Part shown: piece after piece, positions 25,495 to 41,769 of the stretch | Numbering within the stretch: the stretch's first letter is position 1 | Layout: each line of letters begins with the position of its first letter | From: Loigolactobacillus coryniformis subsp. coryniformis KCTC 3167 = DSM 20001 | Lineage (GTDB): Bacteria > Bacillota > Bacilli > Lactobacillales > Lactobacillaceae | Assembly (NCBI RefSeq): GCF_002706425.1 | Contig: NZ_CP017713.1 | Span: 2,852,001-2,916,000 of the forward strand | DNA: 64,000 nt | Direction: 5' to 3' | The notes under the pieces: model-generated | Told to the model about the DNA's origin: nothing | Seen by the model: the letters and a program-made list of their open reading frames with translations, nothing else | Database searches by the model: none | Translations under genes and position numbers: made by a program

Positions 25495-25652
25495 TGGTTT
25501 CTACACTACTGCTGGCTATTTCAGTTTTAAGTTAAGTGAAATTTGTTACTCTAAATGATCGAACGTTACTTTGGATGTAAGCTGATTCCTGAGACAACTT
25601 TTAAGAGAGGGTATAATGAATAAATCATCTCTCAAAAGGAAGGAATTTTTAC

Positions 25653-26792
25653 ATGCCAACTCGTTACGACAAAGAATTCAAACAAAAACCTATATAAGCA
25701 AGGCGAATCAGCTGCCCAACTGGCCAGAGAATATGGCATTGGCTATTCAACAGTTCATAAGTGGATCCAGGGCCAGGCCAAAACTCAATCCGGTAAATCG
25801 CCAGACGAAATCAAAGCGATGGAAAAGCGACTGGCTTCGCTGTCTGAGGAGAACGAAATCCTAAAAAAAGCCCTGGGCTTCCTTGCGCAGAAGTAACCAA
25901 TATCTTTGATTACATTCACCAAGAAAGCCATCACCACCAGGTAACCAAGATGTGCCGAATCCTCGGTGTTTCCAGAGCTCAGTATTATCGTTATCGATCC
26001 CCCAAACCTTCAAAACGCCGGGCCGAAGATGCGGGCTTGAAACAACGGATTCTGCGGATCTTTGCGGAATTTAAGCAGCGATACGGTGTTATGAAGATCC
26101 ACCATGAATTGAATCTGGAACTTCAACCACTGCAGCTTCGGTGCAGTCCACGACGGATTTCCCGGCTCATGAAGGAACTGGATATCCACTCCGTTACCGT
26201 CAATAAGTGGAAAGCGGCTTCGGCTTCCAAAACCAAGGTTGAACAGCGTCCCAACTTGCTTAAGCAGGATTTCTCGACCACTGGTTTAAATCAAAAATGG
26301 ACCGCTGATATGACCTATATTCAAACGAAGCGTAATGGCTGGTGTTACTTATCAACCATCATGGACCTGCACTCACGACGGATTATCGGCTATTCGTTCT
26401 CAAAAAAGATGGCTACTGATTTAGTCTTAAAGACCCTTGAAAGCGCGGTTAAAAATCGAACCATTACTGGGGACCTGATTATCCATACGGATTTAGGATC
26501 ACAGTATACCAGCGATGATTACAATCAACGTTTAACTGAGCTACATATCCGCCACTCATACAGCCGTAAGGGTTGTCCGTATGATAATGCGCCAATGGAA
26601 TCCTTTCACGCTTCCCTCAAAAAGGAATGTGTTTATCCAGTGCCGGTCTTTGAAGATTATGAAACTGCCGCTGCCGTCCTTTTTGAATAGGTGCATGCTT
26701 TCTACAATAGGAAGAGCATTCATAGTTCACTGGGCTACCAGACCCCCTTACAAGTTGAAATTGCAACACTTACGAGCCAAATGGCCGCCTGA
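25653..26792 (+). pseudogene. IS3-family (IS150 group) transposase genes, broken
   Basis: OrfA begins MPTRYDKEFKQ at 25653 but reaches a stop within a few codons; a small deletion has lost codons and shifted the frame, after which YKQGESAAQLAREYGIGYS and the helix-turn-helix and leucine-zipper (EENEILKKALGF) can be read in another frame to 25895. OrfB (about 25895-26792) has the rve integrase core with DMTYI, HTDLGSQYTS and E in PMESFHASLKKE, but a TAG at 26688-26690 replaces the conserved Tyr of FEYVHAFYN. Two independent lesions make the element dead. Its exact ends were not found. Confidence 0.85.
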
Positions 26793-27191
26793 TTTAATGC
26801 TTTCCAGGGTTCAAATAAGTTATTAATCGCGATTAATGATTTATTTGAGCTGTGGAAGGTAAACGCGGTTCTGAATGTCTCTTAAAATCTGTCTCAAATA
26901 TTGACTTCAATCCACTGGCTATCAAACACCCAAAGAGCTTTTCTCCGCTGCTTCCGCCGGTTAAGTTAAGTCCATAAAATATGAATATTAATGAAAATAC
27001 TGATTTAATAGGATTTATCGTGTGGCTAATTTGTTCTTGCAATTTGGGCCCAAAAAATATATAATATACGCGGAGATTGAAAGAGGTCTCTATGTGATGG
27101 ATATTCTCCAATTCAGCAGAGTCCAATTGATCCACCACATTAAGGCTCTGCTTCATAGCAACTAACAGTCGTTTATAAGGGGGAAAATATT
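26793..27191. other. Intergenic region before the WxL gene
   Basis: It contains a palindrome at about 26816-26845 (AAATAAGTTATTAATCG and its mirror), possibly an IS end or terminator, and the WxL promoter. A reading frame on the minus strand here overlaps that promoter and shows no coding features. Confidence 0.5.
27037..27065 (+). promoter_or_regulatory. Promoter of the WxL gene
   Basis: TTGCAA (27037-27042) and TATAAT (27060-27065) with a 17-bp spacer; the leader is about 120 nt. Confidence 0.8.
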
Positions 27192-28983: not shown

Positions 28984-30310
28984 GGCTCTTTGTCAAATCC
29001 TGTTGATGAATAGCTTTTACAGAGTTGAAAGTCATGCGACTTTCAACTCTGTTTTTTTCATTGGTTTTGTTCTCATTTGCCGTAACTTAATACGTGAAAT
29101 CATATGATGGTAATTACGGAATCCAAATGCTGTGCGTTGAATTTGTTTAATCATTCGATTCATGCCTTCGACTGGGCCATTCGTATAGTCCGATTCACTG
29201 GCGTTGAGTACAACCACTAAGTTCTTTTTGAACGTTTGAAACACTGCTTTCATGTAGGGACTTATATTTTGACTTGTATATAGATCTTCCACAAGCTTGT
29301 CTTTGTCTTGATTCTTAAGGTTTTCCATGATGCTTTGCATCGACTCGTACGATGCTTTAAGTTCTTCGTTAATTGTCAGTCCTTGTTCTACACGTTCTAG
29401 TTGTGTGAGTTGTTTTCGCAGGTGTCGGTCATAAAAGACATGTTCCTCATCTAGATTTCCGGCATACTTCAAATAAAGCCGCCAGGCGAACTTTAACGTG
29501 CGATATTCATAGGATCTGTTATTGTACTTTTTCATGGTTTGCACCCGAGTTTGATTAAAAGCCCGAGTCATCATTGCAACGATGTGAAAGCGGTCGATCA
29601 CAATTTTTGCCTGCGGAAACATTGCCTTGGCAATGTCTTGATAGTAACTATTTAGATCTACGGTAACTGTTTTGACACGTGCTCGAACACTTGCTGGAAA
29701 TTGTTTAAAATAATCAGTAATACTTTGCTTGAATCGGTCTGGCAGAATTTGTTGAATTTCGTGCTCACCAGCGCCATTAATACAGATGAAATGGAGCCGA
29801 CCACCAATTCCTCTAAATTCATCCATGGCGAGATGAACCGGTAGATAGTTAAGATTTCTGCGAAATAAGTCATCATAGTTGTCTAAGTAACGACAGACAG
29901 TGCTAGCTGATATGCCGGCATCGATCGCAATGCTAGCTTGAGTGCGGTCGTCTTGTAGACTCATAAACACTTTCTGACGCGTGGCTCGGGAGATACAACA
30001 GTACTTGTCTACCACATCAGAAGTAGCCATAAACGACGCTTTACAATTACGACAAATGACGCGTTCTTTATGGAGTTCTAAATAAACTGGTTCACTCGCA
30101 TTCGCTGCCAGATAGGTCACGCGTGATACGTAGTGTCCATTATGACTTAGCTCGCAAAAGCCACAGTTAGCGCAATGTTTCTGGTCGAACTTAACCGTGG
30201 CTATATATACTTTTGCGCGCTTAGCTTTAATCACTTGATAGTTATATTTGTAAAAAACTACATTTGGGTCTTTAATACTGAGCGCAAATTTTATATTTAT
30301 CTACAGGGTC
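28984..30310 (-). mobile_element. ISL3-family insertion sequence
   Basis: The left end GGCTCTTTGTCAAATCCTGT at 28984 is the typical ISL3 terminus. The transposase is intact. The right end could not be fixed: GGACCCTGTAGATAAAT, read inward from 30311, resembles it only loosely, and no target duplication was found. Confidence 0.75.
29032..30234 (-). CDS. ISL3-family transposase
   Basis: The 400-residue protein has an N-terminal zinc-binding region (CANCGFC and CRNC), a helix-turn-helix (STVCRYLDNYD) and a DDE domain with Asp in LAMDEFRG, Asp in VTVDLNSYYQDIAK, and Glu in GPVEGMNRMIKQIQR. The motifs IDRFHIVAMM and YTNGPVEGMN define ISL3 transposases. It appears intact. Confidence 0.92.
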   Translation of the reverse strand: MIKAKRAKVYIATVKFDQKHCANCGFCELSHNGHYVSRVTYLAANASEPVYLELHKERVICRNCKASFMATSDVVDKYCCISRATRQKVFMSLQDDRTQASIAIDAGISASTVCRYLDNYDDLFRRNLNYLPVHLAMDEFRGIGGRLHFICINGAGEHEIQQILPDRFKQSITDYFKQFPASVRARVKTVTVDLNSYYQDIAKAMFPQAKIVIDRFHIVAMMTRAFNQTRVQTMKKYNNRSYEYRTLKFAWRLYLKYAGNLDEEHVFYDRHLRKQLTQLERVEQGLTINEELKASYESMQSIMENLKNQDKDKLVEDLYTSQNISPYMKAVFQTFKKNLVVVLNASESDYTNGPVEGMNRMIKQIQRTAFGFRNYHHMISRIKLRQMRTKPMKKTELKVA

Positions 30311-30620
30311 CATAAGTTTTCACGTCCTTTAAAAAAGATGCTGTAGTGGGTGGATTTTTTAGGTGCGAGGCTTATGGGCCTTTTTTATTTTGCACTAAAA
30401 AATCCTGCTAATAGATTACCATGTTAAGTAAGCTATCAACAGGAAAAAGTATAGAACCATCATTACGCTAGTCAACGTTAATGTCACACGCTTTAAGTTT
30501 TATCATTTTTGATGGAGCTAGATTATAGTTGTTAGTCCTAAAATAAAACTGATCGAACATGCCATTTTTTGCGGCATGTTCGATCAGCTTTTTTTCTTTA
30601 AACCAATAACTTATTTATTG
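30235..30620. other. Intergenic region between ISL3 and the helicase locus
   Basis: No gene. GGTCCATAAG (about 30308) can pair with CTTATGGGCC (about 30370) before a T-run, a long-loop terminator candidate; a stronger terminator follows at 30549. Confidence 0.55.
30549..30595. terminator. Strong bidirectional terminator at the end of the helicase operon
   Basis: CTGATCGAACATGCC pairs perfectly (15 bp) with GGCATGTTCGATCAG, with A-rich and T-rich flanks. On the minus strand it lies just after the last gene of the helicase operon. Confidence 0.88.
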
Positions 30621-30839
30621 CTATTCCACCGCCCGTGCCCCCATTAACCGCAACACCCCCGCCGCGCTACGCTGATTCTGGCACAAAAACTGTAAAAATT
30701 GCAGAAATTCGCCGGCGTCAGCTTGACGGTACAAAAACTCACCTAGTACATAGATCGACGCATCAGCCGACAATGGTCGATCTAAAAAGTCATGCTTAGC
30801 CAGCTCGTGGCCGACTGGTAATCCTAAATCTGTCATCAA
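30621..30839 (-). CDS. Small uncharacterised protein, end of helicase operon
   Basis: 72 residues, MMTDLGLPVGHELAKHDFLDR..., with a helical Phe/Leu/Gln-rich centre (EFLQFLQFLCQNQRS). ATG 30839 follows GAAAGGAGTCG. No domain recognised. A hairpin repeat separates it from the upstream antitoxin-like gene, but all are on one strand. Confidence 0.55.
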   Translation of the reverse strand: MMTDLGLPVGHELAKHDFLDRPLSADASIYVLGEFLYRQADAGEFLQFLQFLCQNQRSAAGVLRLMGARAVE

Positions 30840-30910
30840 AGCGACTCCTTTCCTAAAAACTAGATAGTATTTGAAAAATGCTGTCAGCTTTTTTCATTAC
30901 TAATTTGTTT

Positions 30911-31134
30911 AAACGTGGTCGAAAAAGCCGATTTCTGCGCCTAACCACGCCAGTCAAGCACATCACTTGCTTATTACCCGGCTGCCATGCTTCAACTTGG
31001 CGATTTTTGCCTTAGTTGCATGGTCAACGTCCGGAACATTAAAGATTATTAGCAGTCCTTGCTAATAATCCACCACTACTGCGAAGTAGTAGGCTAGTGC
31101 TCAAAATCTGGACGCTTTTGCAAACACACTCTAG
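30911..31134 (-). repeat. Dispersed hairpin repeat, copy 3 (long form)
   Basis: Read on the minus strand it contains GTTTGCAAAAGC at one end and GCTTTTTCGACCAC at the other, and inside three hairpins: CTACTAC...GTAGT, GATTATTAGCA...TGCTAATAATC and CAACT...AGTTG before CATGGCAG. The order and loop context match 35980-36215, with different stem bases but pairing kept. Confidence 0.75.
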
Positions 31135-31316
31135 CAGTCAAAAGCTTCACCGAGCAACGTTTCTAGCTCACTGTGCCATTTATGCGCCGCGAGTACGACT
31201 ACGCAATCGTTGGTACGCATATTGCGAATCACCAACACGCCGTCTGTGCGGTCTAGCTCACGCACTATTTTGTTCAAATGCATCTTCGCCGTACTAACGG
31301 TGACCGTCTCGATCAT
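31131..31316 (-). CDS. Phd/YefM-like antitoxin-fold protein, no partner toxin
   Basis: 61 residues beginning MIETVTVSTAKMHLNKIVREL, which fits the N-terminal strand-helix of Phd/YefM antitoxins (T-V-S-x-A-x-x-x-L-x-x-I-V), followed by VLVIRNMRTNDCVVVLAAHKWHSEL, the second strand pair and helix. The C-terminal toxin-neutralising tail is very short. ATG 31316 follows GAGGAGG. No Doc, YoeB or similar toxin lies next to it; upstream is the helicase (27-bp gap). It may be an autoregulator of the operon. Confidence 0.6.
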   Translation of the reverse strand: MIETVTVSTAKMHLNKIVRELDRTDGVLVIRNMRTNDCVVVLAAHKWHSELETLLGEAFDC

Positions 31317-31345
31317 CAGCTCTCACCTCCTCTACAATAGCGCCA

Positions 31346-32677
31346 TTAGCTGCGCACATCTGCTGGCACCACATCAGTCTGCATCGGCAAATGACCCCCG
31401 TCACCCACAGCCACAGCTTGTTCCTGCACTAATTGTGGCGTGAAGCGCATCTGCCCCGGCACAAAGCTAAACGCCAATTCCGCCAGCCGCCCCGACCGAT
31501 TTTTACGAAAAATCAGATTCAGATGGCGCGTGGCCTTGCGCTCCTCACTCAAACTGGCCGGATACAGAAAACTGACCACATTGGAATCCTGCTCAATACT
31601 GCCCGACTCGCGTAAATCAGCTAATTGTGGCGTGCGATCGACGCGTTTTTCCAACTCCCGATTCAATTGCGAGAACAAAATGATCGGAATATCCAACTCG
31701 TTGGTCAGCAATTTCAGCTCGCGGGTAATAATCTCGATCTCCTGCCGCCGATCATGCCGCGCCGCCACCCGATCCAAACTGATTATTTGCAAATAATCGA
31801 TCACCGCCACATACTGACCCGCCGGTGCGTGCAACGCATGGTCCCGGATCACCTTGACGATCTGCGGTAGCACCAACAGTTTATCGTGCAATTGCAATCG
31901 CTGCTGATCTAACTGACCCACCGCTGCCTGCACCTGCTGTTTTTCCGCCGCCGACAACTGGAACGGATTGGCGAACTTGCCCACTGCGACCCCAGTAGAA
32001 TAAGCCACCGTCCGCTGATAATTGTCAGTCGCCGTCATTTCCAGGGAAAATAGATCTACCGTCAAGGCCGCATCATGGCTTAGCGCGCGCTGAATTAGAT
32101 TAACCGCAAAAGCTGACTTACCAATGCCAGGGCGGGCGCCGATTGTCCAGAGTACACCACCGCGCAGGCCGCCATTGAACACCGCATCCACATTAGAAAA
32201 GGTTTTGATGCCGTTAGCTTGCGGTTGAGCCAAGGCTTGCAACAGCTCCGCGCCGTGCTCCGACATACTCCGTGTCGGCAACTTCGGCTGATTCAGCGCT
32301 GCTAGCTGCGCACTTTGTACCTGTAACTCGGCTAAATTATCCGCGCTAGGCAAAGCAAAGTAGGCTTGGGCCGCTACTTGCAGCTTGCCTTGCGCATACC
32401 AGAAATGCAGCGCCTGCAAGCTATCCTGAAAAATCGCTTCGTCATCAAATGGCCGCTCAAAAGTTTGCCACTCATCAGCCGCAAAGGCCAACGGATAGGC
32501 AGCGTTGAAGCGCCGCTGGATCTCGACCCAGTTGCGGTACGGTCCCGGCTCCGCCACCATAAACTGAATAAATTCACGACAACTTTTGACGCCAAACCAT
32601 TCAGCGTCGATGCTCACCGTCTGCATCATTTCCGGATGATGCAATAAATAATGTACTACCTTAGTGTCCAATGGCAT
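31346..32677 (-). CDS. DnaB-like replicative helicase
   Basis: The 443-residue protein has an N-terminal helical domain (1-110) and a RecA-type C-terminal helicase domain with Walker A GARPGIGKSAF (about residues 183-193), a DnaB H1a-like FSLEMT, Walker B VAVIDYLQII, the H3-type ILFSQLNRELEKR, and DLRESGSIEQDSNVV. This is the arrangement of hexameric DnaB helicases, but shorter at the N-terminus than chromosomal DnaC/DnaB. It overlaps the upstream DnaD-like gene by 17 bp and has its own GGAGGAG. Chromosomal replication would use another copy, so this is an accessory or mobile-element helicase. Confidence 0.88.
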   Translation of the reverse strand: MPLDTKVVHYLLHHPEMMQTVSIDAEWFGVKSCREFIQFMVAEPGPYRNWVEIQRRFNAAYPLAFAADEWQTFERPFDDEAIFQDSLQALHFWYAQGKLQVAAQAYFALPSADNLAELQVQSAQLAALNQPKLPTRSMSEHGAELLQALAQPQANGIKTFSNVDAVFNGGLRGGVLWTIGARPGIGKSAFAVNLIQRALSHDAALTVDLFSLEMTATDNYQRTVAYSTGVAVGKFANPFQLSAAEKQQVQAAVGQLDQQRLQLHDKLLVLPQIVKVIRDHALHAPAGQYVAVIDYLQIISLDRVAARHDRRQEIEIITRELKLLTNELDIPIILFSQLNRELEKRVDRTPQLADLRESGSIEQDSNVVSFLYPASLSEERKATRHLNLIFRKNRSGRLAELAFSFVPGQMRFTPQLVQEQAVAVGDGGHLPMQTDVVPADVRS

Positions 32678-33551
32678 GCCCGATCTCCTCCACTTCCGCT
32701 ATCGTTGTGCTGACAGACTCTTCTGCCGCCCGGGCGACCACTTGCGTCACATCACCACAACAAAGATTGAATAAATTCGCTAAATAACGCTGCTTGGTCA
32801 GCGGCGCCGCCGATTGTACATGTGGTGCTGGCGGTGCCTCCAATAAATACTGGTTAAACTTCGGTCCAAACAAAGTCTGTGGTCGCAAAAACTTCCAATA
32901 ATCGGTACCATACCAATCCTTGCACTTCCAATCGATCACCTGCTTGATCTGTTTGATCGTCACTTGCTGCTCAAATAATTGCGCTAGCAAAATCTGTGTT
33001 GCCGAGTCGTTACTAAATTGTTTGCCTGACTGTTGCCGCAAGTAGGCTAGGATTTTGCCGCTAGATGCCGCTAACTTAGTGCGTTGCTCCGGGGTATATT
33101 TTTGCAAAGTCAGTGGAGTGACACCAGTTAAGGCCGCTTGCTGATTTATCGAGCGCGCTTGACTTTTCTGGTCAGGTAAATCAAACTTGATCAGTCCAGT
33201 ATAGTTGGCCCCAGCATCAGGTGCATAGCGCTCCCAATGACAGATCTGGTAGTGACCGTTACTAGCCGGTCGCATTAGATCGCACTGTGCCAACAAAGCC
33301 ACCACCGGCGCAACGTATGAACCGCGCTCGATTTTGACCCAGCGCGCTAATTCAGTCAACGTCAACGGTTTGTCTGGATCAGTGTATAGCAACCCATTCT
33401 GCCGCAACGCGCCAGCCACGAATAACGCCTTGATCCACAGCATATAGCCAGTGTGACACTGACTACGATTAGCTAATTTTTCTAATTTAGTTAATTCCGG
33501 TAAATGTAAAAAATCATCCGGTAGTCTAAATAACGTTCGCAAACCCAGCAC
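32661..33551 (-). CDS. Phage-type replication protein (DnaD-like, conserved phage C-terminal domain)
   Basis: 296 residues. The N-terminal part (about 1-115) has a winged-helix look of phage replisome organisers (LTLTELARWVKIERGSYVAPVVALL). The central part (about 168-240: KILAYLRQQSGKQF, then IKQIKQVIDWKCKDW and KFLRPQTLFGPKFNQYL) matches the conserved phage C-terminal domain of DnaD/helicase-loader proteins. It should bring the DnaB-like protein encoded next to a DNA site. The start is GTG 33551 or TTG 33542, only 10-20 nt from the candidate promoter at 33564-33605. Confidence 0.75.
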   Translation of the reverse strand: MLGLRTLFRLPDDFLHLPELTKLEKLANRSQCHTGYMLWIKALFVAGALRQNGLLYTDPDKPLTLTELARWVKIERGSYVAPVVALLAQCDLMRPASNGHYQICHWERYAPDAGANYTGLIKFDLPDQKSQARSINQQAALTGVTPLTLQKYTPEQRTKLAASSGKILAYLRQQSGKQFSNDSATQILLAQLFEQQVTIKQIKQVIDWKCKDWYGTDYWKFLRPQTLFGPKFNQYLLEAPPAPHVQSAAPLTKQRYLANLFNLCCGDVTQVVARAAEESVSTTIAEVEEIGHAIGH

Positions 33552-33563
33552 CTCTTTTTATTT

Positions 33564-33605
33564 CTTCACTTATAGATGCCGTATCAACGACCGCTTTTGT
33601 GCCAC
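33564..33605 (-). promoter_or_regulatory. Sigma-regulon promoter A (helicase operon)
   Basis: On the minus strand: GTGGCACAAA, 11 bp, ATACGGCATCTATAAG, then TGAAG. The same two blocks with the same 11-bp gap lie at 35505-35546 before the DUF1659 gene. No sigma-A promoter overlaps. Confidence 0.7.
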
Positions 33606-33613
33606 AATTTAGG

Positions 33614-33677
33614 CAAAAAAAATAGACCACATACAGTAAACGTTGATTTAACGCAACTGACGCGGTCTATTTTTTTA
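33614..33677 (-). terminator. Terminator between ComK-like gene and helicase operon
   Basis: AAATAGACC pairs with GGTCTATTT, with an inner CAGTTGCG/CGTTTACTG-type helix, and T-runs on both sides. It separates the ComK-like transcript from promoter A. Confidence 0.75.
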
Positions 33678-33728
33678 AAGTTTTTGACTAAGAATTACCG
33701 TCGATAACGATTTAAATTTTATCGTCAG

Positions 33729-33808
33729 TGTTGCTGACAACACTGCATCCTGTTGCCCGCAACACCCTTGACCGTTGTTGGCAACACCCAACACTGTTGC
33801 ACACAACA
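33729..33808. repeat. Array of four TGTTG/CAACA palindromes
   Basis: TGTTG-CTGA-CAACA (33729-33742), TGTTG-CCCG-CAACA (33751-33764), TGTTG-G-CAACA (33776-33786) and TGTTG-CACA-CAACA (33795-33808). Centres are about 22, 23.5 and 20.5 bp apart, close to two helical turns, so all sites face the same side of the helix. They lie between the ComK-like gene and the helicase operon and could be replication iterons or operators. Confidence 0.75.
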
Positions 33809-33815
33809 GTCACTT

Positions 33816-34628
33816 TTATGACTGCTGCCGGCGTGCTTTGATCAACTCACGCGGCGGAAACCAGGCGTATTGCGCCCGTTCAGTCGCCTCATGGATCGTA
33901 CTGCAACACTCATCTGTTGCGATATAACAAACATCTTCATCGTGATTAGCGAAGATAAACTGCCGAATCTGCCATGCCGACCACAGTGGTAGCCTTAATC
34001 CAGGTATCTCCGGCAAGTTAGCCGGAACAACTAAGTCAACATGACTACTAGGCAGCCACTGTTCGATCGCCCATTGCGTCAACTGGTGCGTATAAATCAG
34101 CATTGCGCGCACCTGCGCCAACTTCTTAAGTAACTTCCGCTTGCAGATATGCACCCGAACAATCACTTGCCGTTGTGTTTGCGGCTGCGTAAAAGTCACA
34201 AAGGTTGCCTTACTAGTAGTATAAATCGAATCGTACCAGCGACTGCCGATCCATGAAGTTTGCCCCCAGCTAGGTGTGCTCTCCGGTACAAACGAATTCT
34301 CCCCCGCAAAATAAAGCGGCTTCCAGCCCAATCTACGTGCTACCCAATGCCAAAATCGCGGACTCGTTAATGACCGCTCACTATACTCGCTGATCAAATC
34401 GTTAGACTTACAAGTGGTCAAGATGCAACGCCCATTGATCCCGATCATAGCCGTATAGTATCGCTTACCTTCCATATTAACCGCATGCGCTAAGCTAGCG
34501 ACATAAACCGTATCAGGTCTTATCACAAATTCATCACTCAACTCAACCAGATCTAACCGCGATTCGATCTGCTCCAAATCAAAATACGGTACGTCGTCGT
34601 TAATAAACTTGGGTTTTCGAACTAACAT
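33816..34628 (-). CDS. ComK-like transcription factor
   Basis: 270 residues. The middle part follows the ComK pattern: GINGRCILTTCKSNDLI, then RFWHWVARRLGWKPLYFAG, the FVPESTPSWGQTSWIGSRW segment corresponding to FPT...S..P.C.WI in Bacillus ComK, and ATFVTFTQPQTQRQVIVRV with the final basic helix RKLLKKLAQVRAML. A C-terminal extension of about 80 residues with a Cys-Cys pair (DECCSTI) is unusual, as Bacillus ComK is 192 residues. ATG 34628 follows AAAGGGG. The gene is divergent from a sigma factor. ComK assignment is by pattern only. Confidence 0.55.
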   Translation of the reverse strand: MLVRKPKFINDDVPYFDLEQIESRLDLVELSDEFVIRPDTVYVASLAHAVNMEGKRYYTAMIGINGRCILTTCKSNDLISEYSERSLTSPRFWHWVARRLGWKPLYFAGENSFVPESTPSWGQTSWIGSRWYDSIYTTSKATFVTFTQPQTQRQVIVRVHICKRKLLKKLAQVRAMLIYTHQLTQWAIEQWLPSSHVDLVVPANLPEIPGLRLPLWSAWQIRQFIFANHDEDVCYIATDECCSTIHEATERAQYAWFPPRELIKARRQQS

Positions 34629-34805
34629 TTTTTAACCCCTTTAAATATCGACGATAATAATTAGCTACATTAATAGCATAAACGACAAAGGTAAACCAGT
34701 GCATGAGGAAGCGCTTATTTTTTAATGAAAATATTATTAAGCTTACATTAAAAAAGCTAAGTTAGCACCACCAAAGGCTTTTGCATCAAGAAAGCGTTTT
34801 ATTTT

Positions 34806-34813
34806 TATTCGTA
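34806..34813 (-). promoter_or_regulatory. TACGAATA box upstream of the ComK-like gene
   Basis: TACGAATA on the minus strand is identical to the core -10 box (cin-box) used by streptococcal ComX. It lies about 180 bp upstream of the ComK-like start, preceded by GACAAAAAAGGCG. An 8-bp match is expected about twice by chance in a window this size. Confidence 0.35.
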
Positions 34814-34910
34814 AATTCGCCTTTTTTGTCGTTTGCGTACTGCGGGGGTTGACCAGTATGCTTATAGCGTCCTAGACGTCTGGGATCACTACAGAAAAGG
34901 TTGTGATCCA

Positions 34911-35408
34911 ATGACAAATCAATTGATCAACACCGCATTTAACGCTGCACTCGCCGATAAAAAGCTGATTTTCGGCGTCTTAAAAAAACTCAACATCACC
35001 CGACAGAATCCTGATTTTGACGACTATTTTCAAGAATGCATCCTGGCTTATGTCGACGCGTATTGCCGCTATGCCGAAAATGGCGCCAGCCTTGATCGCC
35101 ACACTTATCTCTACATCAAACTGCGCCAACGCGTGATTGACTTACTACGCAAACACGACTGTTACCAACGCTACTTCGGCCACACCGCGCCCGATGACCG
35201 CAGTAGCGACACCGAACACAGTCTATACCAAGCACTACTCTTGCAGCAACTACTAACTGAACTCCCGCTAACCGAAAACCAATTATTCCGCCTACTTTAC
35301 CTGCAAGATGACTCGATCACCGAGATCTGCCAACAATTAAAAATTAGTCGCCGCACCGTTTACCGCCGCCGAACTAAGTTATTGGCAAAGTTACAGCAAT
35401 TATTGTAA
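34911..35408 (+). CDS. Small sigma-70 family factor (ComX/SigH-like)
   Basis: 165 residues. Region 2 covers about 25-85 (DDYFQECILAYVDAYCRY, then TYLYIKLRQRVIDLLRK, with the core -10-recognition helix), and region 4 covers about 110-165 (LTENQLFRLLYLQDDSITEICQQLKISRRTVYRRRTKLLAKL, a clear helix-turn-helix). There is no anti-sigma gene beside it. The start is ATG 34911 behind AAAAGG; a longer frame to 34833 is possible. It is divergent from the ComK-like gene. The shared promoter blocks at 33564 and 35505 are its most likely targets. Confidence 0.8.
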   Translation: MTNQLINTAFNAALADKKLIFGVLKKLNITRQNPDFDDYFQECILAYVDAYCRYAENGASLDRHTYLYIKLRQRVIDLLRKHDCYQRYFGHTAPDDRSSDTEHSLYQALLLQQLLTELPLTENQLFRLLYLQDDSITEICQQLKISRRTVYRRRTKLLAKLQQLL

Positions 35409-35454
35409 CGATTGATTTCAGTTACCATGTTCTCAACCAATCTAGACTAAACGC

Positions 35455-35486
35455 GCCTAAAAAAGCAGATTACTGCGCCTTTTTAG
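35455..35486 (+). terminator. Terminator of the sigma factor gene
   Basis: CCTAAAAAAGCAG pairs imperfectly with CTGCGCCTTTTTAG, ending in T-rich sequence. Confidence 0.6.
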
Positions 35487-35504
35487 ATACCCTGTAGAAA
35501 AAAG

Positions 35505-35546
35505 GTGGCACAAATCGGCCCGCTCATACGGCATCTATAAGTGAAG
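35505..35546 (+). promoter_or_regulatory. Sigma-regulon promoter B (DUF1659 gene)
   Basis: GTGGCACAAA (35505-35514), 11 bp, ATACGGCATCTATAAG, TGAAG (to 35546). It matches promoter A in both blocks and in the gap, although the 11-bp gap itself and flanks differ. The DUF1659 start is about 110 bp downstream. Confidence 0.7.
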
Positions 35547-35653
35547 GGTAAAATAGCGGCCGCTGATTTTCCCCCCTTCAAAAACTGGCGCCTACCACTA
35601 AGTTACTCATTAACGATAGAGTAGCGCAGCCATAAACTTAAGGAGGTCATCCC

Positions 35654-35857
35654 ATGGCTATTTTGAAAACAGACTTGCAGATCAAAACCGTCGGCGACAA
35701 CATCGACGGCGAAGCGACACACAAGTTCGTCAACGTCAAAGAAGGCACCACGACTGAACAATTGGATAAATTCGGTAAGACCATCGCTGAACTAGCCAAC
35801 GAAGGCTACAGCGCCGCCGTCACTGTTGTGTATGATCGACACGACTACGCAGGTTAG
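35654..35857 (+). CDS. DUF1659-like small protein
   Basis: 67 residues, MAILKTDLQIKTVGDNIDGEATHKFVNVKEGTTTEQLDKFGKTIAEL..., matching the small DUF1659 family pattern of two strands, a central helix and an AVTVVYDRHDY strand. The function is unknown; in other Firmicutes such genes lie next to DUF2922 genes, as here (36340). ATG 35654 follows AAGGAGG. Promoter B drives it, placing it in the presumed sigma regulon. Confidence 0.75.
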   Translation: MAILKTDLQIKTVGDNIDGEATHKFVNVKEGTTTEQLDKFGKTIAELANEGYSAAVTVVYDRHDYAG

Positions 35858-36215
35858 AGTGCGTTGAAAAAGCGCTCAGATTATGGCCTATAGCCTAGCT
35901 GGACGATAAGAGACACGCAAGTAGCTCGTTCGAACAGCGTAGCTATACGGAATAAGCTGTTTTTTCGACCACGTTTCGGCTAGAGTGATAAATTAGGCGC
36001 TCAGGATTTGAGCATCAGCCTACTACTCCACAAAAGTAGTTGATTATTAGCAAAAACCGCTAATAATCTTTGATGTTACGGGCGTTGACCATTCTTGTGG
36101 CAAAATTCGTGCCGCAAGAAACATGGCAGTTGGGTGATAAGAGACACGTAGTGACTCGTTCACACAACGTAGCTAGTCGCAGAAACCTGCACCATTTAGC
36201 ATGTTTCCACCACCC
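35857..36215 (+). repeat. Dispersed hairpin repeat, copies 2A (short) and 2B (long) in tandem
   Basis: Copy 2A (about 35857-35975) has outer stem GTTGAAAAAGC/GCTGTTTTTTCGAC and core GATAAGAGACACG with CTCGTTC. Copy 2B (about 35980-36215) starts GTGATAAATTAGGCGCTCAG like copy 1 and adds three hairpins (CTACTAC...GTAGT, GATTATTAGC...GCTAATAATC, CTTGTGGCA...TGCCGCAAG) before a GATAAGAGACACG core. The DUF1659 stop codon abuts copy 2A. Confidence 0.75.
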
Positions 36216-36339
36216 TTGAGTAACGCGCACCACCCTCATTTTCGCCGCCAAGCGTACGCCCCAACGCCAAATTGCGGAAATGCCGCACCACTAAATTATC
36301 TACTACTACACCCAATCCACCACAGAGAGGAGCATTCCC

Positions 36340-36594
36340 ATGAAACAACTTGATATGGAGTTCAAGAACGAAATCGGCAAAACGAAACACATGCGCCTGA
36401 ACTACGCTTCCCAGACCTTGGACGAAACCACGGTCAAAACAGCGATGCAAACGATCGCCGATTTGAAGATGTTTGAGTTGGAAGCTGTCAACCCGTACGC
36501 AACGCCGATCAAGGCGCAGTATATTGAACGGACAGTAACACCAATTTTTGGCGGTGAAGCAGAGGCTGTAGAACCAGTAGCCGACGCTGAATAA
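36340..36594 (+). CDS. DUF2922 small protein
   Basis: 84 residues, MKQLDMEFKNEIGKTKHMRLNYASQTLDETTVKTAMQTIADLKMFE..., with the DUF2922 features of an N-terminal strand pair, a central helix and an acidic Glu/Ala/Val tail. Function unknown. ATG 36340 follows GAGAGGAG. It is separated from the DUF1659 partner by the tandem hairpin repeat, which may affect relative expression. A strong hairpin follows. Confidence 0.78.
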   Translation: MKQLDMEFKNEIGKTKHMRLNYASQTLDETTVKTAMQTIADLKMFELEAVNPYATPIKAQYIERTVTPIFGGEAEAVEPVADAE

Positions 36595-36603
36595 ACACCG
36601 AAT

Positions 36604-36647
36604 ACGCCAAACAGCCACACTCAATCAAAAGTGTGGCTGTTTGGCGT
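36604..36647 (+). terminator. Terminator of the DUF2922 gene
   Basis: ACGCCAAACAGCCACACT pairs perfectly with its complement (18 bp) around an 8-nt loop; the T-run is broken (TTATTTCATTT). Confidence 0.7.
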
Positions 36648-36835
36648 TATTTCATTTCAATTTAATAATTCGTAATACTATCGATCGCACGTTGCCGTAA
36701 TAATTCGATCATTGCCGAACTAACATCCATGACTACTTGATCAGCACCCACAAATTATCAGGCCAACGACTATCCTGTCTACTTATGATCGGCATCATAA
36801 TAATCAACGCTGATCCTTGACCATCAGATTCTCCC

Positions 36836-37531
36836 TCACCCCAGCAATGCTAGCAAAGACTCCTGTTCAATCGCCAGTGTTTCCGGTATCTGCTGCCAAA
36901 AAGTCTGCGCAGAACGTTCAAAATTAAGCAGATCTAGCTCGTTAATTAATAACGCGGCCTGATTTGTATAGACCGACGTGAAGACATCCAGATGACTACT
37001 GAGACTATTACCAGAAAAGTCCAATGGGTCAGCTTGACTACGAAAAAAATCGGGTCGTAATTGCTGCAATTTTTGGACAGCACGCTCATTACCTGACTTA
37101 ATAGTTTCAGCCAAGTAATAAAGCTGCTGCATCTCAGCAACATTCATTGTTTTAGCCACATCAGCGGATAGAAACATCCCAAAAAGTCGCACGACGGTTC
37201 GATAATTTAGATTCTGGCTAGGTAATTGCTGCCGCTTCAAGTTATCTTGCAAAAAAGTATATATCTGATTACGCAATTGCTGCGCTAGCATCAAAATATG
37301 GGTATAAAGATGCATCGTTATCTCACTATCTACTAAATCAGCCGGATATTGTTCTATTAGCGACGGCTGGTCGATCTTGGTTTTAAAATAAAACCGCTTA
37401 ACTTCTGTCAGCTGCGCACAATAATCATCTTTCTGATCGACCCAAAAATAAAATTTTACCGTCTCCATATCGCTAATCCCCATACTCAATATAGTCACTT
37501 TATTAGCAGTGAAATACTCATTTCTAAACAT
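36836..37531 (-). CDS. Uncharacterised protein
   Basis: 231 residues with no signal peptide, membrane helix or known domain. The composition is helical and acidic with many Leu/Gln/Tyr (QQLYYLAETIKSGNERAVQKLQQLRPDFF). The longest frame starts at 37531, but ATG 37468 (METVKFYFWVDQ) has a better ribosome binding site (GGGG, 7 nt) and may be the true start, giving 210 residues. It stands alone in accessory DNA. Confidence 0.55.
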   Translation of the reverse strand: MFRNEYFTANKVTILSMGISDMETVKFYFWVDQKDDYCAQLTEVKRFYFKTKIDQPSLIEQYPADLVDSEITMHLYTHILMLAQQLRNQIYTFLQDNLKRQQLPSQNLNYRTVVRLFGMFLSADVAKTMNVAEMQQLYYLAETIKSGNERAVQKLQQLRPDFFRSQADPLDFSGNSLSSHLDVFTSVYTNQAALLINELDLLNFERSAQTFWQQIPETLAIEQESLLALLG

Positions 37532-38012
37532 AAAGTTGCTTTAATAATACACAATGTATAGGTAATTTACAAAATAAATTTAGCTTTTTGATATTTAATT
37601 AAAGTAAGGTCGCATATCACCTTGATAGCAATAAAACCACCACTACATAACACGACCAATTTGAGCTATTATCAGCGCTAGAACGGATACGCGCTCAAGA
37701 TGAGCATGTAAAACAGGCTAAAAAGTATACAGGCGATTGGGTGATAGATGTTAAAAGATCAAGACGACTATACTAATGTTGGCCGATCGTCTGTCTTTGT
37801 TGGACGATTTGCTGGCACTGCCGGACGAAAACTTGGCAGAAGGTACGGCTGCTTGACCGTCATCAGCTAGATTGTTTTAGTCTTTCGCACTATGGGGCCT
37901 ATTTCTTCGCAAACCATGGCCTATTAGATTGCATTATGTGGCCTATGATGATGCTTTCTTCTATGTTACAATTCAATAAAGCGCTTACTTCGATTATTGG
38001 GGATTATAACTA
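37532..38012. other. Gene-poor decayed stretch
   Basis: No intact gene. Short frames (for example MLADRLSLLDDLLALPDEN at about 37779 and QDEHVKQAKKYTGDWVIDVK near 37700) look like pieces of degraded genes. The promoter of the next gene is not obvious. Confidence 0.4.
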
Positions 38013-39279: not shown

Positions 39280-39465
39280 TTATTGCTCTAGGTATTCTTT
39301 GATCAATTTAATACCAATATCAACGAGCTCATTCTCACTAATTTGTTCATTGCTTTGAAGCATGGCCATTGTTAACCGATCAACAAATTTATTTTCAAAG
39401 CTTTCTTCTATCGAGTTAAGAAAGTAGTAACTAGCGAGCCGATTGCGCACATCTTCTGGAATCAT
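39280..39465 (-). CDS. Small accessory ORF of the IS21 element
   Basis: 61 residues, MIPEDVRNRLASYYFLNSIEESFENKF..., helical, no domain recognised. The start overlaps the istB stop by 4 bp (ATGA), so translation is probably coupled. It lies inside the IS ends, so it moves with the element. Most IS21 elements have only istA and istB. Confidence 0.65.
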   Translation of the reverse strand: MIPEDVRNRLASYYFLNSIEESFENKFVDRLTMAMLQSNEQISENELVDIGIKLIKEYLEQ

Positions 39466-40220
39466 ACAGAGTCACCTCGTAATCCATAGCGTTCACGCAT
39501 TGATTTATCGCCTTGAATTAAAATCGGGTAGGCATCATGGATAATGCGATCAAGGATTGCATCGGCTATTTGTGGATTACCTAGTTTATTATGCCATCCA
39601 TCTGGCGCAAACTGTGAACAATAAATGGTTGATGATTGATGTAATCGACTTTCTACTAGCTCTAAAACATAGGTAGACTGCTCTAAAGACAACTCCGTTA
39701 ACAACCATTCGTCAATGATTAAAACATCAACTTTTTTATAGCGAGCTAATATTTTATGAAAATTTCCATTAGCTTCATGCTTAGCTACAGCTAAGTCGTC
39801 TAAAAGTTCTGGCAGCCGAACATACTTCACCTTATAAAATTGGCGACATGCTTCTATGCCTAAGGCATTAGCGAGCCAAGTTTTACCATTGCCAGATGCG
39901 CCCATCAAAATAATATTATGATGCTCACGAATGTAGTTCCCTGTTGCTAGTTTTTGGATTAGCTTACGATCCAATTTGCGATCTGGCAAATAATCTATTT
40001 CGGCTAACGCAGGCTCTATACTCGGAAAATCAGCGCTGTGTAATAGCCGACTAAGCTTATTAGATTGCTGTCTGGCATAAGCACCATCGACAATTAATTC
40101 AAACTTATCTTCAAAATCCATTTGTTGGTATTCTGGTTGCTGTTCCTGAACTTCTAAAATCTCAACCATAGCGTTGAGTCGCATTTCTCGTAATTTACGC
40201 TTAGTTTCATCTGATGTCAT
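39462..40220 (-). CDS. istB: IS21 helper ATPase
   Basis: 252 residues, AAA+ ATPase of the DnaC/IstB group that supports IS21 transposition and target choice. Walker A is MGASGNGKTWLANAL (about residues 108-122), Walker B is VDVLIIDEW, and a sensor-like STIYCSQFAPDGW follows. The start is ATG 40220 behind AAGGGG, overlapping the istA end by 14 bp; the longer frame is istA sequence. Confidence 0.92.
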   Translation of the reverse strand: MTSDETKRKLREMRLNAMVEILEVQEQQPEYQQMDFEDKFELIVDGAYARQQSNKLSRLLHSADFPSIEPALAEIDYLPDRKLDRKLIQKLATGNYIREHHNIILMGASGNGKTWLANALGIEACRQFYKVKYVRLPELLDDLAVAKHEANGNFHKILARYKKVDVLIIDEWLLTELSLEQSTYVLELVESRLHQSSTIYCSQFAPDGWHNKLGNPQIADAILDRIIHDAYPILIQGDKSMRERYGLRGDSV

Positions 40221-41769
40221 TATCTTTTTCCCCTTCGATTCCAAAATAGGCTGCGCCACGCGTGAAGCCATAAGTGTTTTGTGCACTTGCATTGTGAGGT
40301 TGCTCCTGTTGTTGGTTACTGCGTAATAAACGCTCGATTACTGGCACCGTTGGTGCTGAGGCAATTTTTATAATATCTTGGCAAGCCTGCTCAATCGCTT
40401 CACTGGAGTACTTACGGCCAAAATTCTTTAAACGAAGGGTTGCTTTCAGTGCTTGCTTTTCCACTTTTGCCGATTTAAGCAAATAACGAACGACTTCCGT
40501 TGTTGCTTCACCAATACTTTCGGCCCACTTAATTGCTTCTTTTGGGGTGTAATCAAGATACAACTGGTGGTTCTCTGGTAGATGATCATGATTAGTCGAG
40601 AATTGACCAAGCTTGCCATAAAGTCGTTTGTGTGAGGCAATACGACTATCTTTGTAAAAGATCTCAACGAGATCTTTCGTAACTTTAATATCAACTTTAT
40701 TCTGGATATATTCGTAAGGAACAGAATAAAACATATTCTCCACATTAGTGTGGTAATCTAATTGTACAGTGGCAGTTTTCCAGGTTGCCATTTTATAAGG
40801 TACCCGTGGTAGAGGCTGTAATGCGAACTGCTCTTCGCTAATAAAAGCGTCTTTACGGTTACCTTTTTTATATTTCTTGGTGAATGGTCGCAAATTAAAC
40901 TCATCTAATTTTTCCCTAACAGCCTGATTTAATTCTATTAATGTGAAAAACTTTTCGTTACGTAGCGCAGCGATAATCCAAGTTGAAAGGATCTTTACAC
41001 TACCCTCGACGTTGGCTTTATCTTTAGGTGTTCGGACACGTGCCGGCAATATAATCGTGTTATAGTGACTTGCCAATTCGCGGTAAGTCGAATTAAGCAC
41101 AGCTTCTCCAGCTTGGTGCCTGGTAACACCAGTTTTTAAATTATCTGGGACAAGGATTTCCGTAACCCCACCAAAGTACTTATAAGCGTGAATATGACTA
41201 ACTAACCAATCTTCTTGTTTCATTGACAAGCGAGCCTCACAGTAGCCATATTGGCTACACGGTAGTGTGGCGACAAATAAATAAGCTTTAACAATTTCTC
41301 CTGTATCTGAATCAGTTAGAGACAATGTTGTACCTGCCCAATCTACTTCCATAGTTTCTCCCGGCTTACGCTTTATGCGCATAGTCGCTTTATACTTTTG
41401 TGCATATTCGTGATAATACTGACAAAATGTGCGGTAAGCGTAGGGAATAACATTATTTTGACGGCACATTGCCTCATATTCATAGTGTAGTAGTGACAAC
41501 GTCACATTAGACTTAGCTAGTTCCGTATGGATATGTTCAAAATCTGGCAATTGTCTGCCTTTAGACTCACGCTTTTTATGCGGGAAAAGTAGCGCTTCGA
41601 ACCATTCGTCATCCATTTCATCAGTGAACGGTGGTACTAACACTTCTTCTTTTGCCCGTTTGATGATCTCTGCAATTTTGGGGCGAGAATTACCTGTAGC
41701 TGCAGCGATATTCCGTTGTACGACCTTTTGAGCATGGAGCTCAAGAATCTTACGATACTGAATGGACAT
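40207..41769 (-). CDS. istA: IS21 transposase
   Basis: 520 residues. An N-terminal helix-turn-helix (HAQKVVQRNIAAATGNSRPKIAEI) is followed by an rve integrase core with first Asp in MEVDWAGTTLSL, second Asp in ILVPDNLKTGV and Glu in TPKDKANVEGSVK. The C-terminal part resembles the Mu-transposase beta barrel. Apparently intact. Confidence 0.92.
   Translation of the reverse strand: MSIQYRKILELHAQKVVQRNIAAATGNSRPKIAEIIKRAKEEVLVPPFTDEMDDEWFEALLFPHKKRESKGRQLPDFEHIHTELAKSNVTLSLLHYEYEAMCRQNNVIPYAYRTFCQYYHEYAQKYKATMRIKRKPGETMEVDWAGTTLSLTDSDTGEIVKAYLFVATLPCSQYGYCEARLSMKQEDWLVSHIHAYKYFGGVTEILVPDNLKTGVTRHQAGEAVLNSTYRELASHYNTIILPARVRTPKDKANVEGSVKILSTWIIAALRNEKFFTLIELNQAVREKLDEFNLRPFTKKYKKGNRKDAFISEEQFALQPLPRVPYKMATWKTATVQLDYHTNVENMFYSVPYEYIQNKVDIKVTKDLVEIFYKDSRIASHKRLYGKLGQFSTNHDHLPENHQLYLDYTPKEAIKWAESIGEATTEVVRYLLKSAKVEKQALKATLRLKNFGRKYSSEAIEQACQDIIKIASAPTVPVIERLLRSNQQQEQPHNASAQNTYGFTRGAAYFGIEGEKDNDIR

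Follow-up and report, generated by a model that had tools for sequence, protein, structure and literature searches.

What reads a pair of identical promoter-like sites on either side of a sigma factor gene, one before a replication operon and the other before two small genes of uncharacterized families? This question is raised by the window that we analysed, a whole stretch of 64,000 nucleotides from the chromosome of Loigolactobacillus coryniformis subsp. coryniformis KCTC 3167 = DSM 20001 (contig NZ_CP017713.1, positions 2,852,001 to 2,916,000). A sequence-only reading of the window had noticed two 42-nt sites, here called promoters U and V; both were recovered as exact matches at the places that it gave, and the sigma gene does lie between them (Table 1). 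Each has the layout GTGGCACAAA, an 11-nt gap, ATACGGCATCTATAAG and TGAAG. In a search of the window for both blocks with up to three mismatches, these sites were the only two matches, each with no mismatch, and 100 shuffles gave none; the same search of the whole genome (2.95 Mb in a single contig) found no further copy. The gap had been described as free to vary between conserved blocks: the blocks are indeed identical, whereas the gaps of U and V have some letters in common, and across modules about half of the gap positions match. Besides the sigma gene, a ComK-like gene also lies between U and V; it was absent from the sequence-only reading, as were two small genes after the helicase gene, a repeat array, a hairpin and a stem-loop at V.

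Table 1. Features of the module in the window (positions counted from the first letter of the window).
Feature	Position	Strand	Remarks
72-aa protein, after Phd-like gene	30621..30839	-	homologue present in 9 of the 11 distinct modules
Phd/YefM-like 61-aa protein, after helicase gene	31131..31316	-	PhdYeFM 18.4 bits, cut-off 29.8
DnaB-like replicative helicase, 443 aa	31346..32677	-	DnaB_C 194.6 bits, cut-off 27
DnaD-like / phage replisome-organiser-like initiator, 296 aa	32661..33551	-	Phg_2220_C 65.2 bits, cut-off 27
Promoter U	33564..33605	-	blocks GTGGCACAAA / ATACGGCATCTATAAG / TGAAG, before DnaD-DnaB operon; class-matched to V in 9 modules
Hairpin, 61 nt, between repeat array and promoter U	33616..33676	-	predicted fold -29.1 kcal/mol, without shuffle control
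Iteron-like array, 22-nt spacing (GTTGcnnGCAACA type)	33730..33808		three copies at successive intervals of 22 nt
ComK-like protein, 270 aa, divergent from sigma	33816..34628	-	genus homologue below ComK cut-off, 5 of 6 outside homologues scanned above
Sigma factor, 165 aa, sigma2 + sigma4 domains	34911..35408	+	ATG at 34911; TIGR02937 72.2 bits, cut-off 42.9
Promoter V	35505..35546	+	same blocks as U, before DUF1659-DUF2922; exact match
Stem-loop at expected 5' end of V transcript, GGCC core	35542..35580	+	-14.1 kcal/mol, z -2.17
DUF1659 / SroA-like small protein, 67 aa	35654..35857	+	DUF1659 (PF07872) 21.4 bits, cut-off 24.1, E 2.3e-4
DUF2922 small protein, 84 aa	36340..36594	+	PF11148 80.3 bits, cut-off 25.5

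The module reads outwards from its centre: in one direction the ComK-like gene, the 22-nt repeats, the hairpin and U, the DnaD-like initiator and the DnaB-like helicase, and in the other the sigma gene, V with its 5' stem-loop, DUF1659 and DUF2922. The sigma factor is a two-domain member of the sigma-70 family; in the scans, which, like the one with TIGR02937, were run on the longer frame that starts at 34833, Sigma70_r4_2 scored 29.5 bits against a cut-off of 25.7, and Sigma70_r2 scored 23.9 against 24, which is 0.1 bit below its cut-off. The DnaB-like helicase adjoins the phage DnaD-like initiator (21.7 bits against Phage_rep_org_N, cut-off 23.3), and the two form a phage-type replication unit. 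Homologues of the Phd/YefM-like protein are located behind the helicase gene in other modules too, and in the count given for the 72-aa protein the stretch from G006 ends inside the helicase gene. The 84-aa protein behind V passes its family cut-off, and the 67-aa protein does not reach the one for DUF1659. A search with Rfam of window positions 30000-38000 returned no matches. Beside the module, a 231-aa protein (36836-37531) has a weak KwaB-like match (13.9 bits against a cut-off of 26.3) and 95-97% identity to copies in G003 and G004. The surroundings also contain an IS3-type element (25572-26914), found as well on the plasmid L079 and in G004, and a gene pair (39462-41769) that presumably encodes IstA/IstB transposase proteins, which it resembles.

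The repeat array of the window has a lag-22 self-match of 0.45, compared with a 95% shuffle level of 0.40. A period of 21-22 nt exceeded the shuffle level in seven of the eight modules tested (G001 being the exception) and in all four solo sites tested, where the shuffles keep base composition only, the segments were picked by eye, and G005, G006 and G007x lie outside the sample. The array thus has the direct repeats at about 21-22 nt that characterize iteron origins. Since these repeats beside U are most likely the binding sites of the initiator, they may constitute an origin of the phage or plasmid type, a reading that we consider moderately probable. The stem-loop on the other side starts where promoter V ends; eight modules fold alike at this point (z from -0.93 to -2.32), and the GGCC core is present in all eight aligned sequences.

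The comparison of U with V across modules is evidence for a shared reader. We lined up the U and V sites of nine modules without gaps, taking the -35 block as the anchor; G003a, G004a and G007y, which are near-identical to included rows, and G002b and G007x, which have no V site in the stretch examined, had been left out beforehand. The -35 blocks of U and V were 94% identical within modules and 66% between them (permutation p 2e-5), and the -10 blocks 92% and 51% (p 4e-5), whereas the spacer reached 54% within and 48% between (p 0.09). A stretch downstream of the blocks was 48% identical within and 39% between modules (p 0.007), which counts against the proposed reading. Among the 5040 pairings of the seven non-redundant modules, two did as well as the real one for the -35 block and likewise two for the -10 block, while 433 did so for the spacer. 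It is important to note that the similarity within modules is partly selected, because the sites were located through words common to U and V; the spacer and the solo sites described below serve as controls. As judged from this alignment, each module has one block code, common to its U and V and distinct from that of other modules, and the spacer varies independently of this code.

The sequence of the sigma factor follows the code on the -10 side. Four modules, called b-type, have the -10 code AAACGTATATATAA in common, and the window module (G000a) and G001 have CGGCAYCTA. Of the 165 positions of the sigma factor, just two separate these six modules by -10 class, namely 72 (R or C) and 79 (L or W), and both are located in region 2.4. 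In its N-terminal part, the window sigma has 42% identity with G001 and 63-66% with the sigma factors of the other class; because this part is nearer to the other group, general relatedness does not explain the code that G000a and G001 have in common. Mantel tests over 11 modules gave rho 0.47 (p 0.004) for the -35 block with region 4.2, 0.50 with the N-terminal part and a partial value of 0.22, and for the -10 block 0.33 (p 0.07) with region 2.4, 0.41 with the N-terminal part and a partial value of 0.13; they are not decisive, as they do not separate the contact regions of the sigma factor from general relatedness. On the -35 side a match with the sigma factor appears weak. In region 4.2 no position sorts the three -35 classes, and the class-specific positions that fall inside this region are 4 of 24, 6 of 22 and 0 of 12. 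By eye, the region 4.2 sequence SxSALYRRR goes with GCGGGACAAA and DRRTVYRWR with ATGTCCCAAA; region 4.2 was nevertheless set aside as the -35 reader, given that it shows no clear excess of class-specific positions. Taken together, the sigma factor most probably reads the codes, and the comparison between modules supports the original proposal of a small regulon in which this factor, by recognizing both blocks, links the replication operon to the DUF genes.

The gene set is not restricted to the window. A second, diverged module of the same genome (L033) is 1.22 Mb away, and its identity with the window module is 55% for the sigma factor and for DnaD, 70% for DnaB, 36% for the ComK-like protein and 94% for DUF1659. 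The set is also present in sister species: all eight genus genomes searched have sigma matches, one to three per genome and 14 in total, none of them with an internal stop, and a DnaD match was found in each of the eight genomes as well. Near-identical a-type (window-type) copies are present in two of the genomes, at 98.8% over 8.3 kb in G003 and at 98.4% over 4.1 kb in G004. In the latter, the match ends after DnaD codon 19, at window position 33494; the match to plasmid NZ_CP076827.1 breaks off at the same point, past which the two have DNA in common, partly in inverted order. In addition, both plasmid NZ_CP035561.1 and a Levilactobacillus huananensis sequence contain a 973-bp piece with the repeats and the ComK-like gene, at 99.7-99.8% identity. 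Given these copies, parts of the module have spread to plasmids and beyond the genus. In two L. plantarum plasmids (L078 and L079), module pieces are located near a plasmid recombinase-family gene, and two Latilactobacillus phages carry weak relatives of DnaD.

The a-type code, when up to three mismatches are allowed, occurs in 4 of 397 sampled genomes of the family, with the G001 match having three mismatches at one site only. All four genomes have the module. Blocks in genomes that lack the sigma gene had been named as a finding that would refute the proposal, and two such exceptions were found among the other codes. These are a c-type solo promoter in this genome (G000:C1:2344174), where no c-type sigma was found, and a satellite operon with a G007x-type promoter (G006:C72), no sigma of that type being found in G006. 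In our view, each of the two is a remnant or a satellite. The exact G007x-type pattern, with its 14-nt gap, is present at 4 of 179 loci, which are three places (G007:C23 twice, G006:C72 and G007:C2). DnaD-type genes with no sigma gene nearby occur at G002:C80, a partial DnaD match, and at G007:C2, and the promoter class of each is one found in a module of the same genome.

The b-type -10, with up to two mismatches, occurs at 14 sites in four of the eight genus genomes, which are the four that have a b-type sigma. Eight of these sites are module promoters, and six lie elsewhere, in G000 (one), G003 (two) and G004 (three). One of the six (G003:C2) precedes a DnaD gene. Those in G000, G003:C12 and G004:C2 combine repeats with a b-type promoter and have no DnaD gene in the stretch examined; the one at G004:C13 is degraded. 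At G000:C1:175298 (L115, L071), the solo array has 21-nt repeats, a hairpin-like stretch and an intact b-type -10, and the neighbour genes on one of its flanks are also found beside the degraded site G004:C13:28384. The sixth has a different arrangement: at G004:C1:103023-103220 (L117), a b-type and then a c-type promoter stand in tandem before a single DnaD-DnaB pair, an order in which one replication operon could seemingly respond to two sigma factors.

Solo repeat-plus-promoter sites that have no DnaD gene, together with the degraded copy, the truncated a-type copy of G004 and the fragments on Lactiplantibacillus plasmids, are what one would expect if the module were left over from integrated plasmids or from phage replication units and served no purpose today. 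We consider this unlikely, since the sigma matches of the genus are all uninterrupted, sigma and DnaD matches are present in every genus genome searched, and the promoters stay paired even where the sigma factor is only 27-58% identical to that of the window.

The ComK-like gene required separate consideration. A Pfam scan of the window copy found neither a ComK match nor any family with any weight, and none of the 11 distinct genus modules passed the ComK (PF06338) cut-off of 22.3 bits, the best scores being 20.7 in G001, 15.1 in G006 and 14.7 in G007x; outside the genus, five of six homologues scanned were above it (24.5-32.5 bits). Because the G001 homologue is just below the cut-off and the counterparts outside are above it, the window protein appears to be a distant relative of ComK and no member of the family, hence the term "ComK-like". 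A fold search against the PDB with its structural model (mean pLDDT 80.3) gave no match at E <= 0.001. In our alignment of ComK-like proteins (A1), four of the 14 rows (L067, L068, L069 and L073) were entered by gene position; scanned singly, L073 was above the ComK cut-off, L067 and L069 were below it, and L068 had no match. Close copies of the window gene are found on four named contigs, three of them from Loigolactobacillus. In the order, the ComK-like profile matched 87 of 295 sampled genomes, and in 16 of 20 Lactobacillales loci drawn from these genomes (L160-L179) a sigma frame is located within 1 kb of the ComK-like gene. DUF1659 plus DUF2922 is present in 5 of these 20 loci and DnaD or DnaB in none, in stretches of 10-19 kb; because of this last result, the replication unit looks like a capture by the genus Loigolactobacillus.

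ComK proteins are DNA-binding activators, and the ComK-like protein, rather than the sigma factor, might bind the blocks in this way while the housekeeping sigma factor transcribes. The gene is indeed a regular neighbour, identified by sequence match in 8 of the 11 distinct modules with a candidate at a similar place in the other three, and its proteins, like the promoters, group G000a with G001 (47% identity, compared with 33-37% in other comparisons). However, the four b-type modules have a single -10 code, and if two close pairs are set aside, the identity among their ComK-like proteins is just 34-38%, which does not exceed that seen across codes, whereas region 2.4 of the sigma factor tracks the -10 code. 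A consensus scan for sigma-70-type promoters was negative at both U and V, and the solo operon at G003:C2 has the promoter and no ComK-like gene in the stretch examined. These observations make an activator role at the blocks decidedly improbable. Gene conversion of short stretches, with no reader selecting the blocks, would account for their near-identity inside each module, but conversion tracts should include the spacer, which does not follow the two matching blocks that flank it, so we give this explanation hardly any weight.

The ComK-like neighbour also raised the possibility of a competence regulon, which was provisionally set aside: a loose form of the code met only the four module promoters in this genome, and this pattern is too narrow for the solo sites, which other patterns found.

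We return to reading by the sigma factor, and propose that the ComK-like gene, the sigma gene, promoters U and V, the replication operon and the DUF genes very likely act as a self-contained sigma switch. The divergent ComK-like protein would be the regulator that controls the small two-domain sigma factor, which, as the comparison of modules supports, would bring RNA polymerase to two private promoters. From U, it would switch on the DnaD-like initiator, the DnaB-like helicase and probably the two small genes behind them. From V, it would switch on DUF1659-DUF2922, which probably close a feedback loop on the sigma factor, by analogy with SroA/SroB and SigS of S. aureus, where the correspondence of SroB to DUF2922 is an assumption. 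Once a module is copied or acquired, the sigma factor and both promoters would diverge together, so that two or three modules in one cell could keep separate codes. The most likely use of such a switch, which we put forward tentatively, may be to replicate, when needed, a unit that is mobile or once was. It is doubtful that a resident module acts in trans on the solo repeat arrays with a b-type promoter, some with a DnaD gene and some without, elsewhere in the chromosomes of G000, G003 and G004; if it did, one sigma factor and its initiator could fire several extra origins at once, resulting in programmed multi-site over-replication of the chromosome or in a hold on related plasmids.

Eleven distinct modules whose sigma/promoter pairs have diverged, with up to three sigma matches per genome, allow residue-by-residue tests of how promoters are recognized and how recognition separates after a duplication, which makes the modules a natural test bed for the evolution of promoter codes. 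They also offer a lead on the common and unexplained ComK-like/sigma gene neighbourhood of the order.

To our knowledge, sigma factors that command a chromosomal replication operon have hardly been described. The closest known system is SigS-sroAB of S. aureus, in which a small sigma factor activates an operon of small proteins whose products, SroA and SroB, exert feedback on sigS (PMC13192611). Among named families, SroA comes closest to the window DUF1659 protein, which is a relative at most, with 18.7 bits against a cut-off of 80 for the SroA equivalog NF049869 (E 0.0012). The available portions of two accounts of SigS (PMC13192611, PMC2585143) describe SACOL1828, whose function is not known, as its neighbour, and are silent on any replication operon, repeat array or adjacent ComK gene. 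The competence sigma factors SigH/ComX, which drive late competence operons and include SigH of L. sakei (PMC3364868), are also small sigma factors of Lactobacillales, and the window sigma has a ComK-like gene next door; a difference may be that the loose form of its code met only module promoters in this genome. Units of a phage replisome organiser and a DnaB-type helicase present the same pairing, with the phage C-terminal domain and repeats upstream, but the window pair sits behind a promoter matched with a bacterial-type sigma factor. Iteron plasmids resemble the locus in their direct repeats at 21-22-nt spacing adjoining an initiator gene, while the initiator of the window is DnaD-like and its array is a putative origin. 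Compared with these systems, what seems to be new is that a proposed switch of sigma, ComK-like and DUF genes is joined to a phage-type replication unit, apparently by capture, along with its 21-22-nt repeat arrays, sigma-less satellites and plasmid fragments.
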